This document shows positions 2,339 through 34,049 of a stretch of DNA of 39,270 nt, in pieces; position 1 is the first letter of the stretch; every line of letters begins with the position of its first letter. The notes below the pieces were generated by a model that did no database searches, had not been told where the DNA came from, and saw nothing but the letters and a program-made list of their open reading frames with translations. The position numbers were made by a program, and so were the translations under genes. This DNA is from a virus. The stretch lies in IMG/VR virus record IMGVR_UViG_3300038701_001762, positions 1 through 39,270 of that record. The stretch is one strand, 5' to 3'.

Positions 2339-2669
2339 CCGGTAATCCTTTCAGAAATTCGTTGATCTGTTCCGCAGTCATAGCATCCCCAGCGAATTTA
2401 GGCGCTGGTAATTCCTGGGCGAGGCGGCGTGATGGTTTTGAAGCCTGTTGTTTTTTCAGGGCATCCAACTCCCTGATATCTGCGGCCATCTTGTGGATCA
2501 ATCTGACTCGCTGCTTCCTGATCCACCCTTCGCACTCTGCATTATCCGACCCCCATGGAGCTTTCTGACCGGTCACCCTCTCGGCTTCCTTCATCAGTTG
2601 GTGGAGGTCATCGCGTTTCAGGATGCACAGATCGAAAACGAGCCATGATATCTTTGGGAAATCGGTCAT
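2328..2669 (-). CDS. Hypothetical protein
   Basis: This gene encodes 113 residues, mostly helical by composition, with Trp-rich N-terminal patches (ISWLVFDLC, APWGSDNAECEGWIRKQR) and a helical, Lys/Gln-rich middle (IRELDALKKQQ). Its 5' end overlaps the stop of the J-domain-like gene (ATGA) and its 3' end overlaps the gapR-like start, so it is coupled on both sides. No family was recognised and no catalytic motif is visible. Confidence 0.7.
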   Translation of the reverse strand: MTDFPKISWLVFDLCILKRDDLHQLMKEAERVTGQKAPWGSDNAECEGWIRKQRVRLIHKMAADIRELDALKKQQASKPSRRLAQELPAPKFAGDAMTAEQINEFLKGLPDAP

Positions 2670-3280
2670 CTTTCTGCCCGTGCGCGCTCATAGGCGGCGT
2701 TCAGCTTCCGTTGTAGGGCCTCGTCCGCTTCCCGCGACTTGGCGCGATAGGCGCTGCGGATATCCTGCCAGAGCGCGGTTTCAGGAACGCCAAGAACCGT
2801 CCACCAATCATCCTCCGGCGGTGGCATTGCAAAGGCGCTAGGCGGGGGAAGCGCCATGAAGCCTTCGAAGGATTTCTTGAACATCCTGCTTCCACCGTGC
2901 CGTTCAACCTGACGTAATCCATTTACAACAAGCGCCAAAGACCGGATATTTTCTTCCGGCCTGATATAGGCGTCTCGCGCCATCTGCCGATCTTCGCCAT
3001 CCCAATTGAAAAAGATACCCACACCAGGATCGTCAGGAATTTTCTGACCTGACCGTGGATACCCATCGAGACGCAAGGCGATGTTTGACGATACGATCAA
3101 TTTTGTCGCACCCATTAAGCGGAGTTCTTCGATTAGCTCACCAATCGCCAAAGAGACGGTGAGGTATCGGTAGCCGCTGCGCCAATCTCCGCGGCGAAAT
3201 TTGGCTCGACCATCTTCGCGCTGGTGGGCCGGTGTTCTTTCCCACCCTTCCGGCCATTGCAGGGGGTATGCTTGTGTCAT
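2666..3280 (-). CDS. Phage protein with degenerate C-terminal J-domain-like region
   Basis: This gene encodes 204 residues. The N-terminal part starts with the phage-typical PLQWPEGWERT and contains a conserved block (GATKLIVSSNIALRLDGYP, DPGVGIFFNWDG) seen in a widespread phage family of unknown function. From about residue 158 the sequence reads as a J-domain (WWTVLGVPETALWQDIRSAYRA ... LNAAYERA), but the His-Pro-Asp loop that activates DnaK ATPase is missing: helix II (AYRAKSREADEA) runs straight into the last helix. Canonical chaperone stimulation is therefore unlikely. It sits between the annealing candidate and gapR. A hairpin lies 22 bases upstream of the start codon. Confidence 0.75.
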   Translation of the reverse strand: MTQAYPLQWPEGWERTPAHQREDGRAKFRRGDWRSGYRYLTVSLAIGELIEELRLMGATKLIVSSNIALRLDGYPRSGQKIPDDPGVGIFFNWDGEDRQMARDAYIRPEENIRSLALVVNGLRQVERHGGSRMFKKSFEGFMALPPPSAFAMPPPEDDWWTVLGVPETALWQDIRSAYRAKSREADEALQRKLNAAYERARAER

Positions 3281-3301
3281 TCCTAAGTCCCTTCTTTTGC
3301 C

Positions 3302-3337
3302 GCCCGGCAGTATGGTCTAGCACCCGTACTGCCGGGC
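3302..3337. repeat. Perfect 11-bp intergenic hairpin
   Basis: Arms GCCCGGCAGTA (3302-3312) and TACTGCCGGGC (3327-3337) are perfectly complementary around a 14-base loop. The hairpin lies in the 101-base gap between two minus-strand genes. Neither strand has a run of T after it, so it does not look like an intrinsic terminator. RNA processing, stabilisation or a protein-binding site are possible. Confidence 0.75.
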
Positions 3338-3381
3338 TATTCCTCTGAGGATCGGAGCCAGAATAGACCCCCAGAGGCGTT

Positions 3382-4722
3382 CTATTCCTTCGCGGCCGCA
3401 ATTTCCTTCATCAGATTGGCGTGAAGATCCGGTGCGTGGTTTTTCATGTTCTCGATACTGATGCCATGCAGATCGATGATTTCATCCGGATCGGTCGCGT
3501 CCATAAGGTCGTTCATGATTTCATCATAGATCGCATGAAAATCATGATCGCCGCCGCCCGTTTCCGGCGCCTCATTCAATACCTCTCCTGTTTCAGGATC
3601 GTGCGGGCTTTCATCAACGGTCGGACCTGTTGGCGTGGGCGATGTTTCTTCCTGGGGTGGTTCATCATCCTGGGGCGGGTTCAGAAGGTCGTTGAGCTTT
3701 TCCTTCAAGGTATCTGCGTTCCATCGGCCATCCGGCGTTTTGCCTGTCTGTTCCTGATAGGTTCCACGCAATAGCTGGAGTTCGTTTTCCGCGATCTGTG
3801 CGGCGCGTTCCTCTTCCTGACGTTTAGCCGCGACCCGCTCGGCCTCCTTCTTCATGGCTTCTTCGGCGGCGGGGTTCGGGTTTTCGTCCTCGATCACCGG
3901 ATCTTCTTCCTTGGCCTTTTGCTGCTTCGGCTTGGTTGCAATAGATCCGGATGTCCGCGTTGGGGTGTTGTCCATTGCGATTACTTGCTCGACGGTGGCT
4001 TCGCCGGTTTTGAGTGCGTTCAGGATACCGGCCATATCGACCATCACATTCATATCGATATCCTTGGCCCCCTCGACGCCCAGGGCCGCATATACCTGCT
4101 GGGCGCTAAGGCCGAAGGCTTGAAGGGCCTCCATACCTGCTTTCCGGCGGTCTCCGAGCGTTTTAACGTCACCTCGGACAGTTTGCAGGGCCAGGTCATA
4201 GGCTTGGTTCCACACAGCCTTGGGAACACCAGCGAAAATGGCGTTGCGCATGGCAATAGCCTGACAGGCATTACCCGTCATAATGATCATGTCGTCGTTG
4301 TAGAGGTTGCCGTTGCGATCTGAAATCTTCCGGCGTGACCGTTTCAGTACGGCGGCATTGGTTTGCAGGTCATGGAATACCGCCTCGGCCTCGATGAATT
4401 TGTCGCGACGATCGATCACGGTCACGCGGCTGGCAACACGGCAGTTCCCCCATTGCGAATAGACAACCTCGGCCAGGCGGATCGAGGGGCCGGAAATCGT
4501 CTTTCCGCCACGGGGCAGGGAGTAATTGCACTCGGCGGCGAATTCCTGGGATATCGTCACCAGCGATGTGATGTTGTTCTGCACAAGGCTGATCGACCGG
4601 GGGAATTGGTGGGCGGTGGCGATCTGCTGGTCGATCTCGGCGCGAGTCAACGCCTGGATAACACTTGTCTCGGGCGTGAATACCGCCGCGCCGCCCTGAT
4701 CTTGTTGAATTACGTCGTTCAT
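3382..4722 (-). CDS. Candidate single-strand annealing/recombination protein with acidic C-terminal region
   Basis: This gene encodes 446 residues from the ATG at 4722, chosen because AGGAG lies 9 bases upstream and a longer form would run into the previous gene. Residues 1-250 form a conserved globular domain containing EFAAECNYSLPRGGKTISG, SIRLAEVVYSQWGNCRV and NACQAIAMRNAIFAGVPKAVW, then a helical RRKAGMEALQAFGLSAQQV block. The rest is low-complexity, rich in Glu, Pro and Asp, with a coiled stretch (EEAMKKEAERVAAKRQEEE) and a short folded C-terminus. Proteins of this type sit beside coiled-coil partners in phage recombination modules, as here. The annealing function is inferred from context and gross resemblance. 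I see neither a clear RecT nor ERF signature, so the family is unproven. Confidence 0.55.
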   Translation of the reverse strand: MNDVIQQDQGGAAVFTPETSVIQALTRAEIDQQIATAHQFPRSISLVQNNITSLVTISQEFAAECNYSLPRGGKTISGPSIRLAEVVYSQWGNCRVASRVTVIDRRDKFIEAEAVFHDLQTNAAVLKRSRRKISDRNGNLYNDDMIIMTGNACQAIAMRNAIFAGVPKAVWNQAYDLALQTVRGDVKTLGDRRKAGMEALQAFGLSAQQVYAALGVEGAKDIDMNVMVDMAGILNALKTGEATVEQVIAMDNTPTRTSGSIATKPKQQKAKEEDPVIEDENPNPAAEEAMKKEAERVAAKRQEEERAAQIAENELQLLRGTYQEQTGKTPDGRWNADTLKEKLNDLLNPPQDDEPPQEETSPTPTGPTVDESPHDPETGEVLNEAPETGGGDHDFHAIYDEIMNDLMDATDPDEIIDLHGISIENMKNHAPDLHANLMKEIAAAKE

Positions 4723-6272: not shown

Positions 6273-6557
6273 CTACCCATCATTAGATTTATGTTCAAGC
6301 CTTGCCTGATCGATTTCGGCAAGTAGTTTCTTGCGGGCTTTCATGACGCCATCAACCACGCCATCCGCCGGACCTGTCACGACGCTCACCACGTTGATGC
6401 CGCGCGCCTTGGCCCATTCCGACCATTTCTTCCGGCACTCGGCGCTGCAATATTTCTGGCGATTATTGTTCGGTTCAAAAGGCTCGCAACACTTGTGCCA
6501 GTGACAGGTTTTCATTGGTCTGTTCTCCGCTGGGGGTATGGGGGGGTCATCCATCAT
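6273..6557 (-). CDS. Small zinc-finger protein
   Basis: This gene encodes 94 residues, or 80 if it starts at the internal ATG at 6515. The segment CHWHKCCEPFEPNNNRQKYC followed by SAECRKKW supplies the Cys/His pairs of a treble-clef or zinc-ribbon finger. The first ATG overlaps the upstream stop (ATGA) but has only a weak ribosome site. The ATG at 6515 has GGAG about nine bases upstream and begins just before the finger, so it may be the main start. The C-terminal helix (MKARKKLLAEIDQARLEHK) is charged. Nucleic-acid or protein binding is likely; the target is unknown. Confidence 0.7.
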   Translation of the reverse strand: MMDDPPIPPAENRPMKTCHWHKCCEPFEPNNNRQKYCSAECRKKWSEWAKARGINVVSVVTGPADGVVDGVMKARKKLLAEIDQARLEHKSNDG

Positions 6558-7653: not shown

Positions 7654-7842
7654 TTACCGTGAGTGATGACTTGGCGGATCGCTTTGCCGACCGGGATCGT
7701 CGTCCCTGTGCCGGAAATATTGCAGTGCCAGTTCCTCGATCTGCTCATTACATAATTGTTCGATATCCCGATACGGGCCTTCATCGACAATCTTCCGCAG
7801 GCGCAATTCTGTGAACAGGTTGAGATAAACGGTGACGATCAT
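7654..7842 (-). CDS. Small ribbon-helix-helix-like protein
   Basis: This gene encodes 62 residues. A short N-terminal strand (MIVTVYLNLFTELRLRKIV) followed by two helices (DIEQLCNEQIEELALQYF) resembles the CopG/ParD ribbon-helix-helix pattern. The last 15 residues are polar and probably disordered. The start overlaps the stop of the exonuclease gene (ATGA), so it is translated with it. DNA binding or autoregulation would be typical of the fold, but the match is weak. Confidence 0.55.
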   Translation of the reverse strand: MIVTVYLNLFTELRLRKIVDEGPYRDIEQLCNEQIEELALQYFRHRDDDPGRQSDPPSHHSR

Positions 7843-8567
7843 GGCGCTTTCTTCGCGTAGTGAACCTTGGGCTCGATCAGGTTGTTATCCGCGATCAGGC
7901 GAATCATGACCTGGCGCGCGGCCTCGGCGTCGGCCATCGCGTCATGTGCGTCCAGGAGGGGGATGCCGAAGAATTCGCAGGCGACTTCCAGTTTCACCAT
8001 GCCACGCGACACCTTAAGGCCCTGATCCTTGTAGGGCGTCAACGCCCGCATCAGGCATGTGTTCTTGGTATCCTCGAACAGATCGTCACGTTTCGCCCGG
8101 CGCAGCTCCGCGCGCATCATCTTGCAGTCGAACTGCGCGTTATATGCCGCCATGATGAAGCCGCTTTTGATCATTGCAGCCCAGGCGTCGAGAACCAGAG
8201 AGACATCAACGCCATGTTCGTTGAGATATTCGTCTGTCAGGCCGTTGACCTCGCTGGCATAGGTGCCATCGATGGACCACCCATCAGGTTTGATGAAATG
8301 CTTGCTGCGGGCGATCTCCTCCCCGAATTGATCGGTCAGGATCGAGGCGAACGACGCAAGGCGCGGCTGGCCGGGCGCATCTGCCGCGATCGGTTCGCCT
8401 GTATCCTTGTTCTTGAACTGGAACAGGCCGGTGGTTTCAGTGTCGAACACGACATAGGTGGGCAGGCGCCCGCCGTTCTCGATGGTTGGTTCCGGTGTTT
8501 CAGGCCGGGGTTGGGTTTCATCTTCCGTGGCGGGCAGTCCCGGTGGTGTTGGTGTGATATTTTCCAT
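7839..8567 (-). CDS. dnaQ-like: DnaQ-like DEDDh 3'-5' exonuclease
   Basis: This gene encodes 242 residues. After a disordered Pro/Glu/Thr-rich leader (1-36), the three exonuclease motifs of the DnaQ/RNase T family are present: ExoI VVFDTETTGL (Asp42, Glu44), ExoII AAYNAQFDCKMM (Asp148) and ExoIII with His208 and Asp213 (HDAMADAEA). It is therefore a DEDDh enzyme that removes nucleotides from DNA 3' ends with two metal ions. I saw no obvious clamp-binding peptide. It lies 12 bases downstream of the beta clamp gene, so a proofreading or end-trimming role in a clamp-linked complex is plausible. No polymerase gene accompanies it in the window. Confidence 0.92.
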   Translation of the reverse strand: MENITPTPPGLPATEDETQPRPETPEPTIENGGRLPTYVVFDTETTGLFQFKNKDTGEPIAADAPGQPRLASFASILTDQFGEEIARSKHFIKPDGWSIDGTYASEVNGLTDEYLNEHGVDVSLVLDAWAAMIKSGFIMAAYNAQFDCKMMRAELRRAKRDDLFEDTKNTCLMRALTPYKDQGLKVSRGMVKLEVACEFFGIPLLDAHDAMADAEAARQVMIRLIADNNLIEPKVHYAKKAP

Positions 8568-8579
8568 TGGTTTTACCTT

Positions 8580-9707
8580 TCAAACTCTCATGGGCATGAT
8601 GATGAATAGTGCCTGGGGGTCGTCTCCGACAATCCTGATCGGATCGCCCTTGTTGGCGGTGTAAGCGGTGAAATCGTTGACCGCGGTGGCTTGCTCGTAG
8701 AGGTATTTGATATTCACCCCCACACTTGCGTCTTCGTCGTTCGCAATGACATGCGATGAAATCGGCATCCGAACCGCCTCGGTCGCATATTCGATGGAAA
8801 TTTCCCCGTTGCTGAAATCGATCTTTGCCGCCTGGGATCTGTGGCCTTGAACACCCTCGATCACATTGGCGAGGCTTTTGAGTTGCCTGATCGCTTCAAG
8901 GTTCAGGTGACAGCTCCAATCCTTGGTCGGTGCCGGGATGACGCGGGTGTAATCGGGGAATGTGCCGTCGATCACCTTTGTGATAAATTCCACGCCTTCT
9001 AATTCCATCGTGAATTTCGTCTCGGTCGCGCTGAACTTGACCGGCTCATTGCCACCCTTCACACAGAACTGCATCATGATATCGATTGCTTTTTTTGGGA
9101 TGATGACCCCTTTATCCATCCCGTCCAACTTGGTGTTCGTGTCGATGATCGCCATTCTGTGACCATCGGTAGCCACGCTGCGCAGGGTTTTGTCGGTCGG
9201 GTGCTGGTGCAGATAGATACCGTTGAGATAGTACCGCGTTTCCTGATCCGATATGCAGTGGCGTGAAAGCCTGAATGCGCGATCCGCATCACCTTGCGAC
9301 ATTTCCCAATCAACGGATTTCTGGGTCGACTTGGCCATAAACGGGAAATCCTCAACGGGTATCCGGTTGTTCACGGTCATTTTGGTTTCGCCCAGGGTGA
9401 TGTTGATGTGTTGGGGATCTACATCGATGGTCAAGGGGGTGGTTGCGGCGTTTGCCAGCGCGTTGATTGCGCGGCTGTTCATCAGGAATTTGAATGTGCC
9501 CATGATGTTGCTGGTTTCAGCTTCAACGTCGATAGCGATGCTCATATCCAGATCGGTGCCGGTAAAGCGCGCCTTTCCCTTTTTCACGGAAACGCAGACA
9601 TAGGACAGGACCGGGATGGTATTCCGGCGCTCAATCACCATCTGCATGAACTTCGCGACCCGCTTGATATCGGTCGGCACGATCGTGAGGGATTTAGCCT
9701 TTGCCAT
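8580..9707 (-). CDS. dnaN: DNA polymerase III beta sliding clamp
   Basis: This gene encodes 375 residues, close to the usual bacterial length of about 366, so all three clamp domains are present. The N-terminus matches clamp domain I (VIERRNTIPVLSYVCVSV, TGTDLDMSI). The hydrophobic partner-binding pocket is preserved: TDGHRM at residues 180-185 and the C-terminal IMPMRV. The ATG at 9707 is chosen over a longer form because AAGGAAA lies just upstream; it overlaps the previous gene by 14 bases. A homodimeric ring on DNA would tether polymerase and other clamp-binding proteins. With no polymerase in the window, it probably serves host Pol III or other phage proteins. Confidence 0.95.
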   Translation of the reverse strand: MAKAKSLTIVPTDIKRVAKFMQMVIERRNTIPVLSYVCVSVKKGKARFTGTDLDMSIAIDVEAETSNIMGTFKFLMNSRAINALANAATTPLTIDVDPQHINITLGETKMTVNNRIPVEDFPFMAKSTQKSVDWEMSQGDADRAFRLSRHCISDQETRYYLNGIYLHQHPTDKTLRSVATDGHRMAIIDTNTKLDGMDKGVIIPKKAIDIMMQFCVKGGNEPVKFSATETKFTMELEGVEFITKVIDGTFPDYTRVIPAPTKDWSCHLNLEAIRQLKSLANVIEGVQGHRSQAAKIDFSNGEISIEYATEAVRMPISSHVIANDEDASVGVNIKYLYEQATAVNDFTAYTANKGDPIRIVGDDPQALFIIMPMRV

Positions 9708-10017
9708 TGGTGATTTCCTTGTAGATTTGCGTGAATATATTGACCGTGAATACCGCATATGAGGCCATGGTTGCCTTAGTCACGTCGCTGGTTCTGACGG
9801 TCACTGCCTCGATGAACATTCGGGCGGCGGCGCGCGACAGGAGGATGAAGCCGCAAAACTCGGTGTCACCGGGTTCTGAGAAGTTCCCCTGGGTGATGTC
9901 TTTGACCTGTTTCACAAGATCATCAACGGCGCCTTCCTCGATCAATTGTTTCTCGATGGTTTCGCTGGTATCTGACGCCTTGTTTATGGCGTCGATCTGT
10001 TCTGGCGTTAATCCCAT
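9694..10017 (-). CDS. Hypothetical protein upstream of clamp
   Basis: This gene encodes 107 residues from the ATG at 10017, preferred because GAGGG precedes it by about ten bases; an in-frame ATG at 10122 would overlap the previous gene by over 100 bases. The protein is helical and acidic in its first half (MGLTPEQIDAINKASDTSETIEKQL) and more hydrophobic in the second (CGFILLSRAAARMFIEAV, YAVFTVNIFTQIY). No family was recognised. The overlap with the clamp gene suggests coupled expression. Confidence 0.65.
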   Translation of the reverse strand: MGLTPEQIDAINKASDTSETIEKQLIEEGAVDDLVKQVKDITQGNFSEPGDTEFCGFILLSRAAARMFIEAVTVRTSDVTKATMASYAVFTVNIFTQIYKEITNGKG

Positions 10018-10697: not shown

Positions 10698-10993
10698 CAC
10701 TGACTCAACATCATGCCGAAGCGCACGATTTCCACGTTATAGGGCAGTCCGGCGATGCTGTTCTGATTGAGATGCCGTTGCAATTGCCTGTTGGCGGCGT
10801 GGAGTAGTGTCGGGTCTTTGTCGTCACTGCTTATCAGCACGAAGGCGCGTTCGCCTTTGGTGCTATCTGCCGGGTCGGCCCCGATCAGATCATAGCTGAC
10901 CAGCATCGAGAACATCTTTTCCGGTCGATCATTGAGTTCACCGATGCGGCGGGCGACGCTCACAGGCATCATTGTGTCTGCTATGTGTTGCAT
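10697..10993 (-). CDS. Hypothetical protein
   Basis: This gene encodes 98 residues with mixed alpha/beta character (ARRIGELNDRPEKMFSMLVSYD, GERAFVLISSDDKDPTLLHAANRQLQRHL). It contains no recognised motif. It overlaps the HTH regulator gene upstream by 13 bases and the 57-residue gene downstream by one base. Confidence 0.65.
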   Translation of the reverse strand: MQHIADTMMPVSVARRIGELNDRPEKMFSMLVSYDLIGADPADSTKGERAFVLISSDDKDPTLLHAANRQLQRHLNQNSIAGLPYNVEIVRFGMMLSQ

Positions 10994-11355
10994 TCGCGTT
11001 CCTCCGCGCGGGCAAGCGTCATGAGCCGCCCGATGATTGAATTGTGGCGGCGCCCGGTGGCGCGACAGATATCGGCAATAGAATCGCCCGCCACGCGCAT
11101 CGCGGTGATCTTGGCGTCTTCCTCTGGCGTGAACCGGCGCACGGTGTGATTGCCGCGGCGCACGACCATTGTTTTGTTGGTTGCGAGAGGCCGGCGGCGC
11201 GGTTCGGGTGTGTCGATGCCTTCTTTGAGGCAGTGCCAGTAGATCGACCCTTTGGACATTCCTGTGTGTGCCTCGATTTCGGCGTAAGACAGGCCTTCCG
11301 TTCTCAAGTCGCCCATTTTGGCGATGGTTTCAGGGGTGAATTTCGGTGCGGGCAT
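10981..11355 (-). CDS. Putative transcriptional regulator with two helix-turn-helix segments
   Basis: This gene encodes 124 residues from the ATG at 11355, which has AAGGAAAG just upstream. Two HTH-like units are visible: residues about 23-45 (LSYAEIEAHTGMSKGSIYWHCL) and about 92-116 (DSIADICRATGRRHNSIIGRLM), joined by a basic linker (RRRPLATNKTMVVRRGNHTVRR). Tandem HTHs of this type occur in resolvase-like and GcrA-like DNA-binding proteins. It is the first gene of the minus-strand early operon and faces the control region, so autoregulation or control of the divergent plus-strand genes is likely but inferred. Confidence 0.75.
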   Translation of the reverse strand: MPAPKFTPETIAKMGDLRTEGLSYAEIEAHTGMSKGSIYWHCLKEGIDTPEPRRRPLATNKTMVVRRGNHTVRRFTPEEDAKITAMRVAGDSIADICRATGRRHNSIIGRLMTLARAEERECNT

Positions 11356-11467
11356 GGCTTTCCTTTCTTTGAAACTCAACTCTAAACATACCCCTAAACG
11401 CATCTCCCTTGCTATTCAAGCGTTTTTTTGCGAATAGAATTAATCAAATAGAAATGGGGGCAGGCAT
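11356..11467. promoter_or_regulatory. Divergent early control region
   Basis: This is the only divergent gene junction in the window, between the minus-strand regulator and the plus-strand HTH gene. It is AT-rich from about 11402 to 11456. It contains TACCCCTAAACG at 11389-11400, an exact copy of a repeat inside the initiator gene, preceded 12 bases earlier by a related CAACTCTAAACA. It also has a dyad, CTATTC (11412-11417) and GAATAG (11432-11437), that could be an operator. Promoters must exist in both directions, but I cannot assign -35/-10 boxes with confidence. Confidence 0.7.
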
Positions 11468-11674
11468 ATGCACGTATCGAAAACCCGTCGAGCAAAGGCA
11501 CTGACACTGCGCGCGGCGATGTATAGCTATCTTTTGGATAATCCCGCAACAAAGCCAAAACAACTAAAGGATAAGTTTGACGTAAGTTCCGCAACAGTGA
11601 CGCGGCATCTTTCGGCGATCCGGAATGGTTGGCGACCTGACGGTATCGAGGGGGAGGGCTCGAAAAATGTCTAG
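11468..11674 (+). CDS. Small helix-turn-helix protein
   Basis: This gene encodes 68 residues and is strongly basic. Residues about 28-52 (TKPKQLKDKFDVSSATVTRHLSAIRNGW) form a clear HTH of the DeoR/MarR recognition style. It is the first gene on the plus strand after the control region, and its stop overlaps the start of the replication initiator gene by eight bases. A Cro-like or activator role, or help in origin recognition, is plausible. The upstream GGGGG is a weak ribosome site. Confidence 0.75.
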   Translation: MHVSKTRRAKALTLRAAMYSYLLDNPATKPKQLKDKFDVSSATVTRHLSAIRNGWRPDGIEGEGSKNV

Positions 11675-12500
11675 AGCCTTTGGGATGATTATCACGTCGA
11701 TATGGGGATCGAACCGGTTTCGGGTTCTTTCGACCGATACGGTCCGGCTCGCATATCTCTATCTGCACACCAATGGACACGGGAACAGTATTGGCGCGTA
11801 TCGCCTGCCGCCTGATTATCTCGCTGCTGATATGGGGAAATCCAAGGAAGAGGCAGAGGTTATCCTCGCCGAGATATCAGAGGTTGGTTTGATCGATTAC
11901 GACGACGCCGAGAATATCGTTCGCATCCTGAATTGGTTCCCGCACAATCCGATCAATTCGCCCAAGCATTTGTCGGCCTCGATCAAGCGTTTCTTTGGCT
12001 TGCCGGGCAAGACGAAATTCGCCCCTGATATCGCTCTGGAAATCACCCTTTCCGCCTTCGAAAAAGCGCAGGAATTATCGGCCCGCGGGCGTTCTCAGGT
12101 GCGCAGCGCCAAAACAGAGCGGCAAAAGTCGAGTGGCGAGACGAATATCGAGTCCAGTATCGGCATGGTCCAGGCGCTCAATGATATGGCCGAAGGAATG
12201 GAGGTAGATCAAAAGTCGCGCTTCCTTTCAATGCTTTATGACCTTCCCGCCCGAAGGGCCGATGCCCTGTTTGACGCGCTTCAAATAGCCGTTCCCGCCG
12301 CTCAAAATACCCCTACCGATACCCCTATGGATACCCCCATCGATAGGGGTATGCGTACCCCTAAACGTACAGATACAGAGACAGAAACCCATACTGAAAC
12401 TGAAACTGACACTCAGACAGAAACGCGAAAATCCCGAAAAATCTCGCCAGACATCCAGGCTGATATCGACAACCTGACGAAGAAATCAAAGGAGGCCTGA
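11667..12500 (+). CDS. Phage replication initiator (lambda O-like winged-helix protein)
   Basis: This gene encodes 277 residues. The N-terminal 115 follow the pattern of phage replication-initiation winged-helix domains: RVLSTDTVRLAYLYLHTN, IGAYRLPPDYLAADMG, then EVILAEISEVGLIDYD and IVRILNWFPHNPINSP. A helical middle is followed by a tetrapeptide repeat (DTPM/DTPI) and a Thr/Glu repeat (about residues 233-256), and a basic C-terminus. The DNA coding for the tetrapeptide repeat forms a 12-bp periodic array, as expected for an origin lying inside the initiator gene, the arrangement known from lambda O. The start at 11667 overlaps the preceding gene. The protein would bind the origin and recruit a helicase, presumably the host's. 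Confidence 0.82.
   Translation: MSRAFGMIITSIWGSNRFRVLSTDTVRLAYLYLHTNGHGNSIGAYRLPPDYLAADMGKSKEEAEVILAEISEVGLIDYDDAENIVRILNWFPHNPINSPKHLSASIKRFFGLPGKTKFAPDIALEITLSAFEKAQELSARGRSQVRSAKTERQKSSGETNIESSIGMVQALNDMAEGMEVDQKSRFLSMLYDLPARRADALFDALQIAVPAAQNTPTDTPMDTPIDRGMRTPKRTDTETETHTETETDTQTETRKSRKISPDIQADIDNLTKKSKEA
12308..12367 (+). repeat. 12-bp iteron-like array inside initiator gene (candidate origin)
   Basis: The octamer TACCCCTA (one variant TACCCCCA) starts at 12308, 12320, 12332 and 12356, all on one 12-bp lattice. The lattice position at 12344 carries the exact inverse, TAGGGGTA. The last unit continues as TACCCCTAAACG, which recurs exactly at 11389-11400 in the control region. Immediately downstream are short GAAACT/GACACT repeats. 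This looks like a set of initiator-binding sites; no experimental support is available. Confidence 0.75.
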
Positions 12501-12502
12501 AC

Positions 12503-12694
12503 ATGGTACGACGCAAGGCCAAAAAAAAGCGCCCGCCGCCCAAACGCGACCGGTCCGAATTGTCGCCTGACGAGTTGCGGACTCTGGAAGAAAAGGTGCT
12601 TCCACGGGCAAGGGAATGGGTTGCCAGCAACAAGCGCGGATCTCCGCTCTATCGGCAGGGTATCCAAACGCTGAATTATTGGGGCTGGGATTGA
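12503..12694 (+). CDS. Small basic hypothetical protein
   Basis: This gene encodes 63 residues. The N-terminus is extremely basic (VRRKAKKKRPPPKRDR), followed by a helical segment (SPDELRTLEEKVLPRAREWV) and an aromatic end (LNYWGWD). GGAGG lies eight bases upstream of the ATG. The stop overlaps the next start (TGATG). Nucleic-acid binding is suggested by charge only. Confidence 0.7.
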   Translation: MVRRKAKKKRPPPKRDRSELSPDELRTLEEKVLPRAREWVASNKRGSPLYRQGIQTLNYWGWD

Positions 12695-12945
12695 TGCCCG
12701 CAATACGGGCGGCACCCAAAAAATGCCGGGCCTTTCTCTCTGCGGATAGGCGGGAATTCACGTTCAAGATTGTCGGCGGTTCGCGCAAGGAAATCTATCC
12801 GGTCGAAAGGCTCGATGGTTGGATTTCGCTCTACAGGCGTTTGCGTGATCGCAATGATCGGCGATACGCGTACATCTACGAAAGCACTGTGGAGGCGCTT
12901 GAAGGCGTTCGAAGAAAGCTCAACGGAAAGGAGATAGACAGATGA
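12694..12945 (+). CDS. Hypothetical protein
   Basis: This gene encodes 83 residues, basic. The short beta-rich stretch FTFKIVGGSRKEIYPVERLDGWISLYRRLRD is followed by a helical RRYAYIYESTVEALEGVRRKL. The start is coupled to the preceding stop, and the stop overlaps the next ATG (ATGA). No family was recognised. Confidence 0.65.
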   Translation: MPAIRAAPKKCRAFLSADRREFTFKIVGGSRKEIYPVERLDGWISLYRRLRDRNDRRYAYIYESTVEALEGVRRKLNGKEIDR

Positions 12946-13196
12946 TTTCAAGGCGAGGATTTATTGGTAGCCTCTTGGCCGCTCCAGTGGTGATAACCAC
13001 GCCCAAATTGCTGATGCCGGTTCGCAAGATAGTGCGCCCAAGGGTAACTATCATTGAGATATTTGATAGAAATTTTCAGCGCGCAGTTGACGGATGCTCC
13101 GAACGCTTCATGGAGAATTTCTGTAGGCCAAATTTGATAATTTCCAGTCTCGAAGATCACTTCACCGATGACAATGAAGGGGATCATCTGTCATGA
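12942..13196 (+). CDS. Small exported protein with twin-arginine-type signal
   Basis: This gene encodes 84 residues. The N-terminus MISRRGFIGSLLAAPVVI fits a Tat signal: SRRGFI close to the S/T-R-R-x-F-L consensus, then a moderately hydrophobic core. The segment LLAAPVVITTP plus LLMP is almost identical to the start of the gene at 18321, but the two mature parts are unrelated. The remaining 55 residues are mixed, with two Cys and an acidic end. The coding bases are noticeably more AT-rich than neighbours, consistent with separate acquisition. Whether the host exports it is unknown. An ATGA overlap joins it to the methyltransferase gene. Confidence 0.7.
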   Translation: MISRRGFIGSLLAAPVVITTPKLLMPVRKIVRPRVTIIEIFDRNFQRAVDGCSERFMENFCRPNLIISSLEDHFTDDNEGDHLS

Positions 13197-13789
13197 AGGC
13201 CTATTCTGATTTCGATAAAATCCCGTTTTATCGATACGGGATGATTATGGCAGATCCGCCGTACAAGTTCGATCATTGGGGAAAGCCCAACGAGAAAAGC
13301 GCGGGCGGCAATTACAACCTCATGACCCTCGAAGAGATCAAAGCGATGCCTGTGGAGCGCATCGCGGCGCCTCAAGCTCATCTGATGCTCTGGTGGAACA
13401 CCAGCATGATCTTCCAGGCCAAGGAAGTGTTGGATGCCTGGGGCTTCAAGTTCGTCACCATGGGGTTCTGGGTGAAAACCACCAAGAGCCACCCGATCAG
13501 GCCCAGGATAGGCACAGGACACGTTCTCCGGGAGTGTGGGGAGCCGTTCCTCATTGGATCGATCGGAGAGCCTCCCACGCTCGATAAGGGCGTTCCTGCG
13601 GTATTTTTCGAGCCAAGGAAGCGCGGACATAGCCGAAAGCCTGACGGGGCGTTTGAGACAGCCGAGCGTTTATCCTCCCCTCATTCATGGAAGATAGAGC
13701 TGTTCAGCAGGACAAATCGCAAGGGCTGGGATGTGTTCGGGAATGAAACCGGCAAGTTCATCGATCCGGTGCAACCTGTTCAGCAATGA
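13193..13789 (+). CDS. MT-A70-family adenine N6-methyltransferase
   Basis: This gene encodes 198 residues. The catalytic motif MADPPY (residues 19-24) sits near the N-terminus, and the MT-A70 order follows: LMTLEEIKAMPV, HLMLWWNTSMIFQAKEVL, FKFVTMGFWVKTT, then RKRGHSRKPDGAFE and SRTNRKGWDVFGNE. Bacterial and phage members methylate adenine in DNA using S-adenosylmethionine. No restriction gene is adjacent, so this is a solitary methyltransferase that may shield phage DNA or mark sites for regulation. The target sequence cannot be read from the gene. It overlaps both neighbours by four bases. Confidence 0.92.
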   Translation: MKAYSDFDKIPFYRYGMIMADPPYKFDHWGKPNEKSAGGNYNLMTLEEIKAMPVERIAAPQAHLMLWWNTSMIFQAKEVLDAWGFKFVTMGFWVKTTKSHPIRPRIGTGHVLRECGEPFLIGSIGEPPTLDKGVPAVFFEPRKRGHSRKPDGAFETAERLSSPHSWKIELFSRTNRKGWDVFGNETGKFIDPVQPVQQ

Positions 13790-14853
13790 GAGATTTGACG
13801 ATCAAAGAGGCGGCGTTGGCCCTACAGGTCAGCCGCCCAAAGCTGAGAGAAATGATTAAGGACGGTGATCTACCTTACCGGAAAACAAAAAAAGGATATG
13901 TTAGGATTAAGTATTCAGACATATCGGATTTGATCGAACCTTTACCAAACCTTAAAATTGGTTTAACTGTTAAATATGTAAGACCTAAGCGGATAGTTCG
14001 AGTTAATCCCGAGTTATCTTGCGCAACGCAAAAAGGATGCCAGATGCTCTATCAACGCAATGCCAAGACCGCGCTGGCCATGGGCGCAGGCCTCACACAT
14101 GAATATCGCGGCATTTTATCCATGCTGATCGACCTCATGGCGCTGCACGACAACGGCGGGATACCGGCAGACACCGCCTATATCGCCGGAAATCTCAACA
14201 TCGGATCGCGCAAATGGAACCAGTCGGTTTTGCCGACCCTGTTGAACGCGCAGAAGATCAAGAAGGTGAAGCGCGGCGGGATCGACGTCTATATCTGGGC
14301 GCATCCGGAATGGGCGACCGGCCCGAAAAGGGTGATCCAGATGGAAACCGAGGCGGCATCTTCTGGCGATAAGGCTGAGGTTGGAAAAAACCACTACCCC
14401 ACCCCGCCGCCGCCAGCGATCTTGAATTCCAATGAGGTTTTAGGGTTTCGCGAGGATATCGCCGAGGAAGTGCGCGAGGTGACAGGCATCAGGCGCGGCG
14501 TCACCGATAACGACCCGAGCGAATTCTATAACCTGAAACCCGCACCGCCCGCCGAGATCGTCGCCCCGCCACCGCCCGACCCAGCGCCCAAACCGGAACC
14601 CCAGCCCGATATAGCCCCGGCAGTCAGCGCAATGGATGTTCTTGAGCGCGCCGGGATCGATGTTTCAAACCACCCCAGAGGCGATCTTTTCTGGGCGCGT
14701 GTCGAACACAACGTGACGCTTGAGAAATGGCTCGAAACCATTCCGCTCAATGAAATTGTCGCCCGCCTGGCGCGCGCGCAGCAACAAGGGTTGATCGACG
14801 ATCACGTCAACAGCCTTGCATCCTACGATCAATATGTTCTCGAAGAAGGATAA
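13786..14853 (+). CDS. Fusion of excisionase-like HTH and DUF1376-like replication domain
   Basis: This gene encodes 355 residues. Residues 1-50 are an HTH_17/excisionase-type domain (LTIKEAALALQVSRPKLREMIKDGDLPYRKTKKGYVRI). Residues about 95-175 resemble the winged helix of DUF1376-type phage replication proteins (LTHEYRGILSMLIDLMALHDNGGIPADTAYIAGNLNIGSRKW). A long Pro-rich disordered region precedes a C-terminal helical domain. The first 250 bases, especially 13870-14020, are much more AT-rich than the rest. At the junction an in-frame ATG at 14044 has AAGGA eight bases upstream, so a shorter replication-type protein (about 269 residues) may also be made. It is probably a helicase-loading or replication accessory protein. 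Confidence 0.7.
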   Translation: MRDLTIKEAALALQVSRPKLREMIKDGDLPYRKTKKGYVRIKYSDISDLIEPLPNLKIGLTVKYVRPKRIVRVNPELSCATQKGCQMLYQRNAKTALAMGAGLTHEYRGILSMLIDLMALHDNGGIPADTAYIAGNLNIGSRKWNQSVLPTLLNAQKIKKVKRGGIDVYIWAHPEWATGPKRVIQMETEAASSGDKAEVGKNHYPTPPPPAILNSNEVLGFREDIAEEVREVTGIRRGVTDNDPSEFYNLKPAPPAEIVAPPPPDPAPKPEPQPDIAPAVSAMDVLERAGIDVSNHPRGDLFWARVEHNVTLEKWLETIPLNEIVARLARAQQQGLIDDHVNSLASYDQYVLEEG

Positions 14854-32463: not shown

Positions 32464-32677
32464 TTATGGGGATGACAACGAAAAGCAACTGGCTGAGAAG
32501 CTCAATGACATGGCTTCGAAAATGCTGACGATCGTTGATGCGGCCTGCCGCCTCAGAAGCGCACCCAGCGACGCCAAGAGACAGCGCGCGATGATGCGTA
32601 CACACCTTGAGAACGCCGCCCAATGCGGCCTCAATGCGTTCACCTATGCAAACGACGAAGGGAAAACCGATGGCTGA
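32432..32677 (+). CDS. Small helical hypothetical protein with GTG start
   Basis: This gene encodes 81 residues from the GTG at 32432 (GAGG nine bases upstream); a TTG at 32426 is possible but too close to it. The 5' end overlaps the zinc-ribbon gene by 32 bases and the stop overlaps the scaffold start. The protein is helical (NEKQLAEKLNDMASKMLTIVDAA, THLENAAQCGLNAFTY). No family was recognised. Confidence 0.6.
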   Translation: MTKINILPPRDYGDDNEKQLAEKLNDMASKMLTIVDAACRLRSAPSDAKRQRAMMRTHLENAAQCGLNAFTYANDEGKTDG

Positions 32678-34049
32678 CGATGATGACCAGGTAAAGGATG
32701 GCGTGGCTTTGGACGAAGAGGATGATGTTTCCGCCGCCCTGCGCGCCGCTATGGGGGAAACCTCCGACAAGTCGAAGGATGACGAGGAAGAGGATATTGG
32801 CGGATTTAACCGACCCTTTGAAGAGGATGCCGATGCCCCCTCGAAAAACCACGTCAGCGAGGAAGAGGGCCAAAAGCGGGTCGAGGATGCCCGTGACAAG
32901 GAAATCGGCTCTGACGCTGCGGTAAAACCGAAAACCTCGGAAGAAGGCGAAGATGGAAAAACCCCGAAATCCAAAGACGAAACCGGCAAAACCGACGACG
33001 AAACCGACAAAACCAAAGACGACACTGGCGAAAAGGCGTCTGATAAAGATGCGGTCAACGACAAGCCTGGTGAAGCGTTAAGCGACGAGGACTACACCAA
33101 GGCCATTGCTGACCTGCCTGCGGGCCTCAAAAGCCGCATCGAGCAGGACCGCGCGGATCTCGATCAGGTTCTTGCGCCGCTCAAGGGTATGGAAGATGAA
33201 ATGAAGGCCCTCGGCACGACGCCGAAGGGGGCAATGGAGTTTTTCGTCAATGCCAACAACTATGCGAACAAAGACCCCGGCGCCTATGTCGCCTGGGCTT
33301 TGGGACAATCGACCGGCGGCGATCCCGAGCGCATCACTCAGGAGCTTTCCAAGGCGGCGGCGACCTATGGCTTCGAGTTGTTCAGTTCCAATGCCGAGAA
33401 CATCGGCGAGGGTTTGAAGAAGCTGGCTGAAAAGCACGGGTATGATCTGACGAAGAAAGACGATGATGACGACGATGATCCGTTTATGTCGGACGAACAG
33501 CGCCGCATCAAAGAGCTTGAAGCCGAAAACAAAAGGCTGAAATCAGGCGGGGAAAAGGACACCGATCCGGCGGGCGGTACTAACACCCCGCCAACGCCTG
33601 GCAACGCGCCTTTCATGCAGCCCAGCGCCGATGAACAGCGCAGCATGATTATGTCGGTGATGACCGAAACCGATGCAGATCAGAAACTGGTTCGCCCGCA
33701 TTTTGAAAAGCTACTGCCGGCGATCACCGGGATCATCAACCAGTATGCGCGATCCGGGCGCGCCATGACCAAGGAAACCTTGCAGGAAGCCTATGAGGCG
33801 GCGGAATTGGCAAGCCCTGAATTCCGGCAAAGTGCCATTGATCGAATGACCGCGCAAAAGTCTGCCGCAGATAGCGATGCAGATGTGCGAAAAGAGGTAA
33901 AGCAAAACGCGGAAGCGTCTGCAAAAGCAGAAGCGGCCAGCAGCAAGATCATTGATGTGCCAGGCCAAAGCGCCCAGCATCAACCCGCCGATAGCGCCGC
34001 TGACCTTTCGATTGAGGCCTTTCTCAGAAAGCAATTCAATCCAGATTAG
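32670..34049 (+). CDS. Scaffolding protein
   Basis: This gene encodes 459 residues, strongly acidic and low-complexity in the first third (Asp/Glu/Lys/Thr repeats), with a structured middle (DYTKAIADLPAGLKSRIEQD, PKGAMEFFVNANNYANKDPG) and a coiled segment (RRIKELEAENKRLKSGGEK). The C-terminus is Ala/Ser/Glu-rich and ends SIEAFLRKQF. Length, acidity, coiled coils and position directly before the capsid gene identify a scaffold that guides procapsid assembly and then leaves. The ATG at 32670 overlaps the previous stop. Confidence 0.82.
   Translation: MADDDDQVKDGVALDEEDDVSAALRAAMGETSDKSKDDEEEDIGGFNRPFEEDADAPSKNHVSEEEGQKRVEDARDKEIGSDAAVKPKTSEEGEDGKTPKSKDETGKTDDETDKTKDDTGEKASDKDAVNDKPGEALSDEDYTKAIADLPAGLKSRIEQDRADLDQVLAPLKGMEDEMKALGTTPKGAMEFFVNANNYANKDPGAYVAWALGQSTGGDPERITQELSKAAATYGFELFSSNAENIGEGLKKLAEKHGYDLTKKDDDDDDDPFMSDEQRRIKELEAENKRLKSGGEKDTDPAGGTNTPPTPGNAPFMQPSADEQRSMIMSVMTETDADQKLVRPHFEKLLPAITGIINQYARSGRAMTKETLQEAYEAAELASPEFRQSAIDRMTAQKSAADSDADVRKEVKQNAEASAKAEAASSKIIDVPGQSAQHQPADSAADLSIEAFLRKQFNPD

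Follow-up and report, generated by a model that had tools for sequence, protein, structure and literature searches.

A probable replication origin of abutting 12-bp sites and an A-rich tract within a phage initiator gene

The window analyzed here, the 39,270 bases of IMG/VR virus record IMGVR_UViG_3300038701_001762, very probably carries its phage's theta-type replication origin within the linker-coding part of the phage's own initiator gene, where an array of five abutting sites (12306-12365) is followed by an A-rich tract (12368-12424). A sequence-only reading had proposed the array as the phage origin, and this proposal was strengthened both by relatives that keep sites and tract and by the encoded protein, which is of replisome-organizer type with a predicted winged helix. 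Because origins inside initiator genes are already known from Tuc2009 and TP901-1, pSK41 and the lambdoid phages, the window would be a further case; what sets it apart from them is the 12-bp lattice on which its sites lie. The features concerned are these.

11389-11400, plus strand: isolated 12-mer TACCCCTAAACG in a divergent intergenic region, with 12-bp identity to 12356-12367
11667-12500, plus strand: initiator gene (277 aa, protein P0001), of replisome-organizer / DnaD-like helicase-loader type by its PHROG matches
11667-12131, plus strand: predicted winged-helix DNA-binding domain and long helix, residues 1-155 (AlphaFold2 mean pLDDT 92.3)
12306-12317, plus strand: iteron 1, AATACCCCTACC, arms 6/8
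12318-12329, plus strand: iteron 2, GATACCCCTATG, arms 7/8
12330-12341, plus strand: iteron 3, GATACCCCCATC, arms 7/8
12342-12353, minus strand: iteron 4, GATAGGGGTATG, core inverted with GATA/TAT arms retained, arms 7/8
12354-12365, plus strand: iteron 5, CGTACCCCTAAA, the weakest arms, 4/8
12368-12424, plus strand: A-rich repeats of about 6 bp (ACAGAN / ACTGAA), encoding TDTETETHTETETDTQTET; TRF rows 12379-12424
12425-12497, plus strand: short C-terminal peptide with a QxDID-L motif common to the relative L007

The initiator gene and its iteron array

P0001 matched phrog_25711 (annotated as unknown; E 2.9e-25), phrog_1701 (DnaD-like helicase loader; E 1.4e-19) and phrog_6251 (replisome organizer; E 1.5e-9). 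All matches lie within residues 3-157 and cover the first 110-157 residues, an N-terminal domain homologous to that of the initiators in these three families. As in replisome-organizer initiators, direct repeats are present in or just after the gene. Assignment to this family is well supported and suggests that P0001 acts as the initiator.

Structural comparison used an AlphaFold2 model built from an alignment of 55 homologues. Generic winged helices were the best hits in a PDB fold search, and the RepA initiators of pSK41 and pTZ2162 (4pql, 4pt7, 5kbj and 4pta) were among the top Foldseek matches (probability 0.99-1.00, E 0.015-0.02), three of them aligning over residues 1-89 of the model. 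Their Z scores of 6.6-6.9 were tied with those of generic winged helices and, being below 8, mean that the fold match by itself proves no relationship. By sequence, P0001 had no meaningful match among PDB chains, fell into no Pfam family even with E-values of up to 1 allowed (RepA_N included) and did not match the lambda O family in Pfam or PHROGs.

The DnaD-like C-terminal domain varies among replisome-organizer initiators and is absent from some, such as that of Dunaliella viridis virus SI2. In P0001 the PHROG matches stop at residue 157 or earlier, and the tail of about 24 residues that follows the tract could be a diverged contact peptide; 12425-12497 is a candidate for contact with the helicase or its loader. 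No phage helicase or loader was identified among the window genes scanned. On the minus strand, a DNA polymerase III beta-clamp-like protein (8580-9758) is encoded beside a DnaQ/RNase T-type exonuclease (7839-8567). Downstream of the initiator gene lie an MT-A70-type methyltransferase (13193-13789) and an HTH_17 protein with a weak DUF1376-like stretch (13786-14853; E 0.025), which may function in replication, as a second such protein, or in regulation.

The octamer TACCCCYA (TACCCCTA or TACCCCCA) begins at 12308, 12320, 12332 and 12356, and its exact inverse TAGGGGTA occupies the remaining position of the 12-bp lattice, 12344. All five sites were confirmed on both strands as previously read, as was the change from DTP to DRG that the inverted unit causes in the peptide. 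TACCCCYA occurs seven times in the window against 0.84 expected, an excess of about 8x that was reached in none of 100 shuffles, and five of the seven copies fall inside 56 bp. The octamer is the middle of a longer unit, a 12-mer starting at 12306 that abuts the next and forms an imperfect palindrome, approximately GATA-CCCC-TATC. Because the 12-mer is an imperfect palindrome, the "inverted" fourth unit differs only in its 4-bp core. When chains of five units with GATA....TATC arms were scored across the whole window on all lattices from 9 to 21 bp, the array at 12306 on a lattice of 12 came out on top with 31 of 40 arm bases; the next-best chain elsewhere in the window scored 24. The arm sums of the neighbours of unit 2 were 24 at an offset of 12 bp compared with 3 at 11, 4 at 13, 10 at 10 and 11 at 14 bp.

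Directly 3' of the array, the tract of about 57 bp is 47% A on the plus strand and 40% GC, against 52% GC for the gene. Its excess of A over T is the second strongest in the window; the strongest, at 32958, lies by a 21-bp tandem repeat (AAAACCAAAGACGAAACCGAC, 32967-33022) in ORF 32607-34049. By analogy with known origins, the tract is a candidate unwinding or helicase-loading element. Iterons and an AT-rich tract thus share one initiator gene, as in the lambda O type, this tract being A-rich and only 60% AT. GC skew, which had been suggested as a means of mapping the replication start, proved uninformative, with no clear turn at 12.3 kb, and a change in AT skew near 11.5 kb coincides with a switch of coding strand.

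Conservation of sites and tract among relatives

A DNA-only scan with TACCCCTATNGATACCCCTA returned six loci. One of them, L007 (IMGVR_UViG_3300032212_000708), encodes a homologue of P0001 with 47% identity over its length and carries the array GATACCCCTATC GATACCCCTATA GGTACGCCCATC CATGCCCCTAGG, followed by ACAGAAATAGAAACAGAAACAG. It was proposed earlier that alignment with related phages would tell DNA conservation from peptide conservation. The array passed this test. L007 retains the octamer, the 12-bp phase, the A-rich hexamer tract and the DTPI peptide (DTPIDTPI); in more distant relatives, abutting GATA...TATC sites are kept where the peptide is not, on an 11-bp lattice or past the stop codon. 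The L007 array has no inverted unit. A second locus, L006, has two units in direct and one in inverted orientation within gene 2553-3512, which is adjoined downstream by an ORF resembling, as judged by eye, an AAA+ helicase loader, and both core orientations occur in only 3 of 37 prophage arrays with at least two sites. Taken together, these arrays indicate tolerance of inversion, which would fit recognition of the arms by a symmetric protein.

Among proven homologues, the 12-bp lattice occurs in just two genomes, those of the window and L007. Searches of viral and genome contigs with P0001 as a single query protein recovered no relatives, a two-sequence alignment scan recovered L007 again and nothing further, and a portal-protein scan gave distant portals only. 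As a DNA pattern, the 12-bp lattice occurred in 15 stretches. Because these are mostly unrelated coding background and the two that look real, L109 and L120, do not match the initiator HMM, a large 12-bp family is not established. L109 encodes a putative replication protein of another class, with GATAAAGGTATC at 6455-6500 on a 12-bp lattice encoding DKGIDKGIDKG. L120 has a noncoding array of GATACCCGTATC 12-mers at about 11030-11250, with one core-inverted unit, beside an apparent tRNA end, and a second array about 100 bp beyond the first.

More distant homologues, at 28-36% identity, from Geobacillus phage E2, Psychrobacillus phage PVJ1 and Dunaliella viridis virus SI2 have units resembling GATACCCTATC, of the form GATA-NNN-TATC, with a lattice of 11 bp. 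The DNA-only pattern GATACNNTATCGATACNNTATC matched 94 stretches in viral contigs, whereas the same pattern with 13-bp units, used as a control, matched none. Of 80 loci inspected, at least 56 had the match in or just after an ORF of the initiator family (N-domain HMM); the true number may be higher, since truncated contigs and contigs read on a single strand are among them.

We avoided selection on DNA by choosing 80 prophage loci by protein alone, through N-domain alignment, 79 of which were counted for chains. An 11-bp chain was present in 31 of the 79, while lattices of 8-10 and 12-14 bp gave 0-2 and control windows 0 of 574. Most of the loci behind these family figures are Firmicutes prophages at about 25% identity, and many of them are interrelated; since they are not mutually independent, the counts should not be read as probabilities. 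When a match of 7 or more of the 8 arm bases was required, site density was 4.4 per kb in gene bases 300-650 and 0.57-0.79 per kb in other regions; 36 pairs of sites were separated by exactly 11 bp. Beside the best site, at neighbours not selected by motif, the arm match averaged 5.2/8 at +11 and 4.2/8 at -11 against only 0.9-2.2 at +/-10 and +/-12. The window shares with this class the GATA/TATC arms, the abutting near-palindromic sites and a short-period A-rich tract just downstream, and differs from it in lattice, 12 rather than 11 bp.

The tract accompanies most arrays of this family. Among 113 initiator loci with an 11-bp array, 111 of them measurable, the array was followed within 130 bp by a 48-bp stretch repeating every 3-7 bp (mostly 6) in 72%, compared with 0.15% of random windows of those loci. 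On the coding strand A exceeds T in these tracts, with a median skew of 0.48. Ten arrays lie 3' of the initiator stop codon, eight of them with a tract. In SI2, in L054 and in the L026 group, array and tract are beyond the initiator stop, the SI2 tract reading RNRDRNRN in the next ORF. Since array and tract lie beyond the stop in several lineages, this DNA is kept without involvement of the initiator peptide. The two-part layout with an 11-base repeat extends to relatives across several bacterial phyla.

Sites in other members of the family differ. L170, L174 and L192 encode homologous initiators that lack GATA sites; the corresponding part of the gene holds units resembling CAAGCCCCTTG, in a single orientation or in both, which suggests turnover of sites within the family. 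SI2 (L002, HQ332136) bears an algal host label, yet it is filed under Caudoviricetes, and both its initiator and its probable origin are of this bacterial-phage type; the assigned host may be an error. A literature text search for the 11-mers found no phage-replication paper by title among the matches listed, a weak sign that the motif is undescribed given that most subscription papers lay outside the search.

Comparison with known origins in initiator genes

Lambda O had been cited as the precedent for iterons inside an initiator gene. The O gene of lambdoid phages has iterons and an AT-rich tract in its middle, and the tract is needed for unwinding (PMC7466680). The parallel holds as an analogy, but the ori-lambda iterons differ in sequence and P0001 gave no match to the O family. 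Nearer precedents are Tuc2009, TP901-1 and r1t, together with the RepA_N plasmids. TP901-1 ORF13 and Tuc2009 Rep2009, whose origins were defined experimentally, bind direct repeats in their own genes, and these repeats serve as the origin (PMC8965321). A comparable two-part layout is present in these phages: units spaced by 11 bp are followed by a short-period A-rich tract in r1t ORF11 (GGAACC units, then 15-bp AGATAAGAATAGATT) and in Tuc2009 (CAACC units, then GGATA/GGTTA), and TP901-1 has repeated CCAGATGTGG-like boxes with a 15-bp A-rich repeat. Unlike the window, these lactococcal P335 phages have other repeat sequences, and their N-domains match the window family only marginally.

The Rep boxes of pSK41 occupy the centre of rep, where they encode a dispensable linker peptide (PMC5703833); iterons of RepA_N plasmids are semi-palindromic (PMC7145576). 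The systems of pSK41 and pTZ2162 resemble the window in mid-rep boxes and semi-palindromic iterons, and possibly in a winged-helix N-domain, which in the window is predicted, but they differ in the poly-A centre of the iteron and in the RepA_N Pfam family, which P0001 does not match. A further correspondence is with E2, PVJ1, SI2 and Firmicutes prophages, which share a homologous N-domain and abutting near-palindromic sites after the DNA-binding domain, followed by an A-rich tract. They have an 11-bp lattice and a 3-bp core, whereas the window and L007 have a 12-bp lattice and a 4-bp C4 core.

Alternatives and a proposed origin mechanism

The array might instead be an operator for transcriptional control, bound by P0001 itself or by an HTH protein encoded nearby. 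The sixth copy at 11389-11400 lies between divergent genes, flanked by small HTH proteins, and is a possible autoregulatory site. The array itself, however, lies about 640 bp inside the gene, no promoter-like site was detected in 10900-12700, L007 has no counterpart of the intergenic copy that we could find, and the sites of relatives are concentrated 3' of the DNA-binding domain rather than upstream (4.4 against 0.57 per kb). We consider an operator in place of an origin very unlikely, although autoregulation and origin binding can coexist.

It is equally improbable that the repeat exists for its peptide, a flexible (DTPI)n/(TE)n linker from recent tandem duplication with the likeness in DNA as a by-product. 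In favour of this reading, the 12-bp unit keeps the reading frame, L007 encodes a DTPI repeat as well, and proteins of this kind often have low-complexity linkers. We recoded the array synonymously with the phage's own codon usage, leaving the peptide AQNTPTDTPMDTPIDRGMRTPKRT unchanged: five octamer copies appeared in none of 100,000 trials and four copies in three. Because no recoding gives five copies, the peptide alone is insufficient; the units must either be constrained as DNA or descend recently from a common copy. Tandem duplication would not create the inverted unit, and the octamers persist in L007 despite only 47% protein identity. In the wider family, moreover, the lattice of 11 bp is not a multiple of the codon and the arrays occur in all three reading frames or after a stop codon, while the tract keeps its A-rich period through KEKE, EEKE, TVTV, PEPE and NRNN repeats (and KE, TE, EQ, TV, RN or PE). 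The sequence-only reading had taken the inverted unit as a sign of selection on DNA. The inverted unit is no special evidence for it, the site being nearly palindromic and inversion being absent in L007. A hairpin of units 2 and 4 in mRNA or single-stranded DNA, acting as an attenuator, cruciform or primer site, is scarcely credible: the single strand of 12300-12372 does fold better than shuffles (z -3.5), but the hairpin needs the one inverted unit, which is missing in L007, and mixed core orientations are rare in the prophage arrays.

For the origin, which remains our preferred interpretation, we propose the following mechanism by analogy with characterized systems. The predicted winged-helix N-domain would bind the five abutting 12-bp near-palindromic sites, and the initiator would coat them, each site probably taking one set of protomers, in the form of dimers or of a filament. 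Abutting sites could thereby assemble an ordered nucleoprotein complex. Strain imposed on the duplex by the coated array may then open the adjacent A-rich tract, at which the C-terminal tail of the initiator would recruit the host replicative helicase or its loader.

A broader proposal, to which we give about an even chance, is a two-part origin code common to the initiator genes of tailed phages from Firmicutes and Proteobacteria: abutting near-palindromic GATA-N3/4-TATC sites, each about a helical turn in length, then a short-period A-rich strand for melting and helicase loading. The KEKE, TETE and EQEQ linkers would be a by-product of this DNA element, and the clade of the window would have shifted its lattice from 11 to 12 bp, implying a matching change in the packing of protomers on DNA. 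If true, sequence by itself would suffice to locate the origins of many uncultivated phages and prophages, and would supply a specified site, lattice and tract to examine; the repetitive charged linkers of phage initiators would also have a DNA-level reason. The shift from 11 to 12 bp would then offer a natural lattice change for asking how initiator complexes tolerate altered helical phase.
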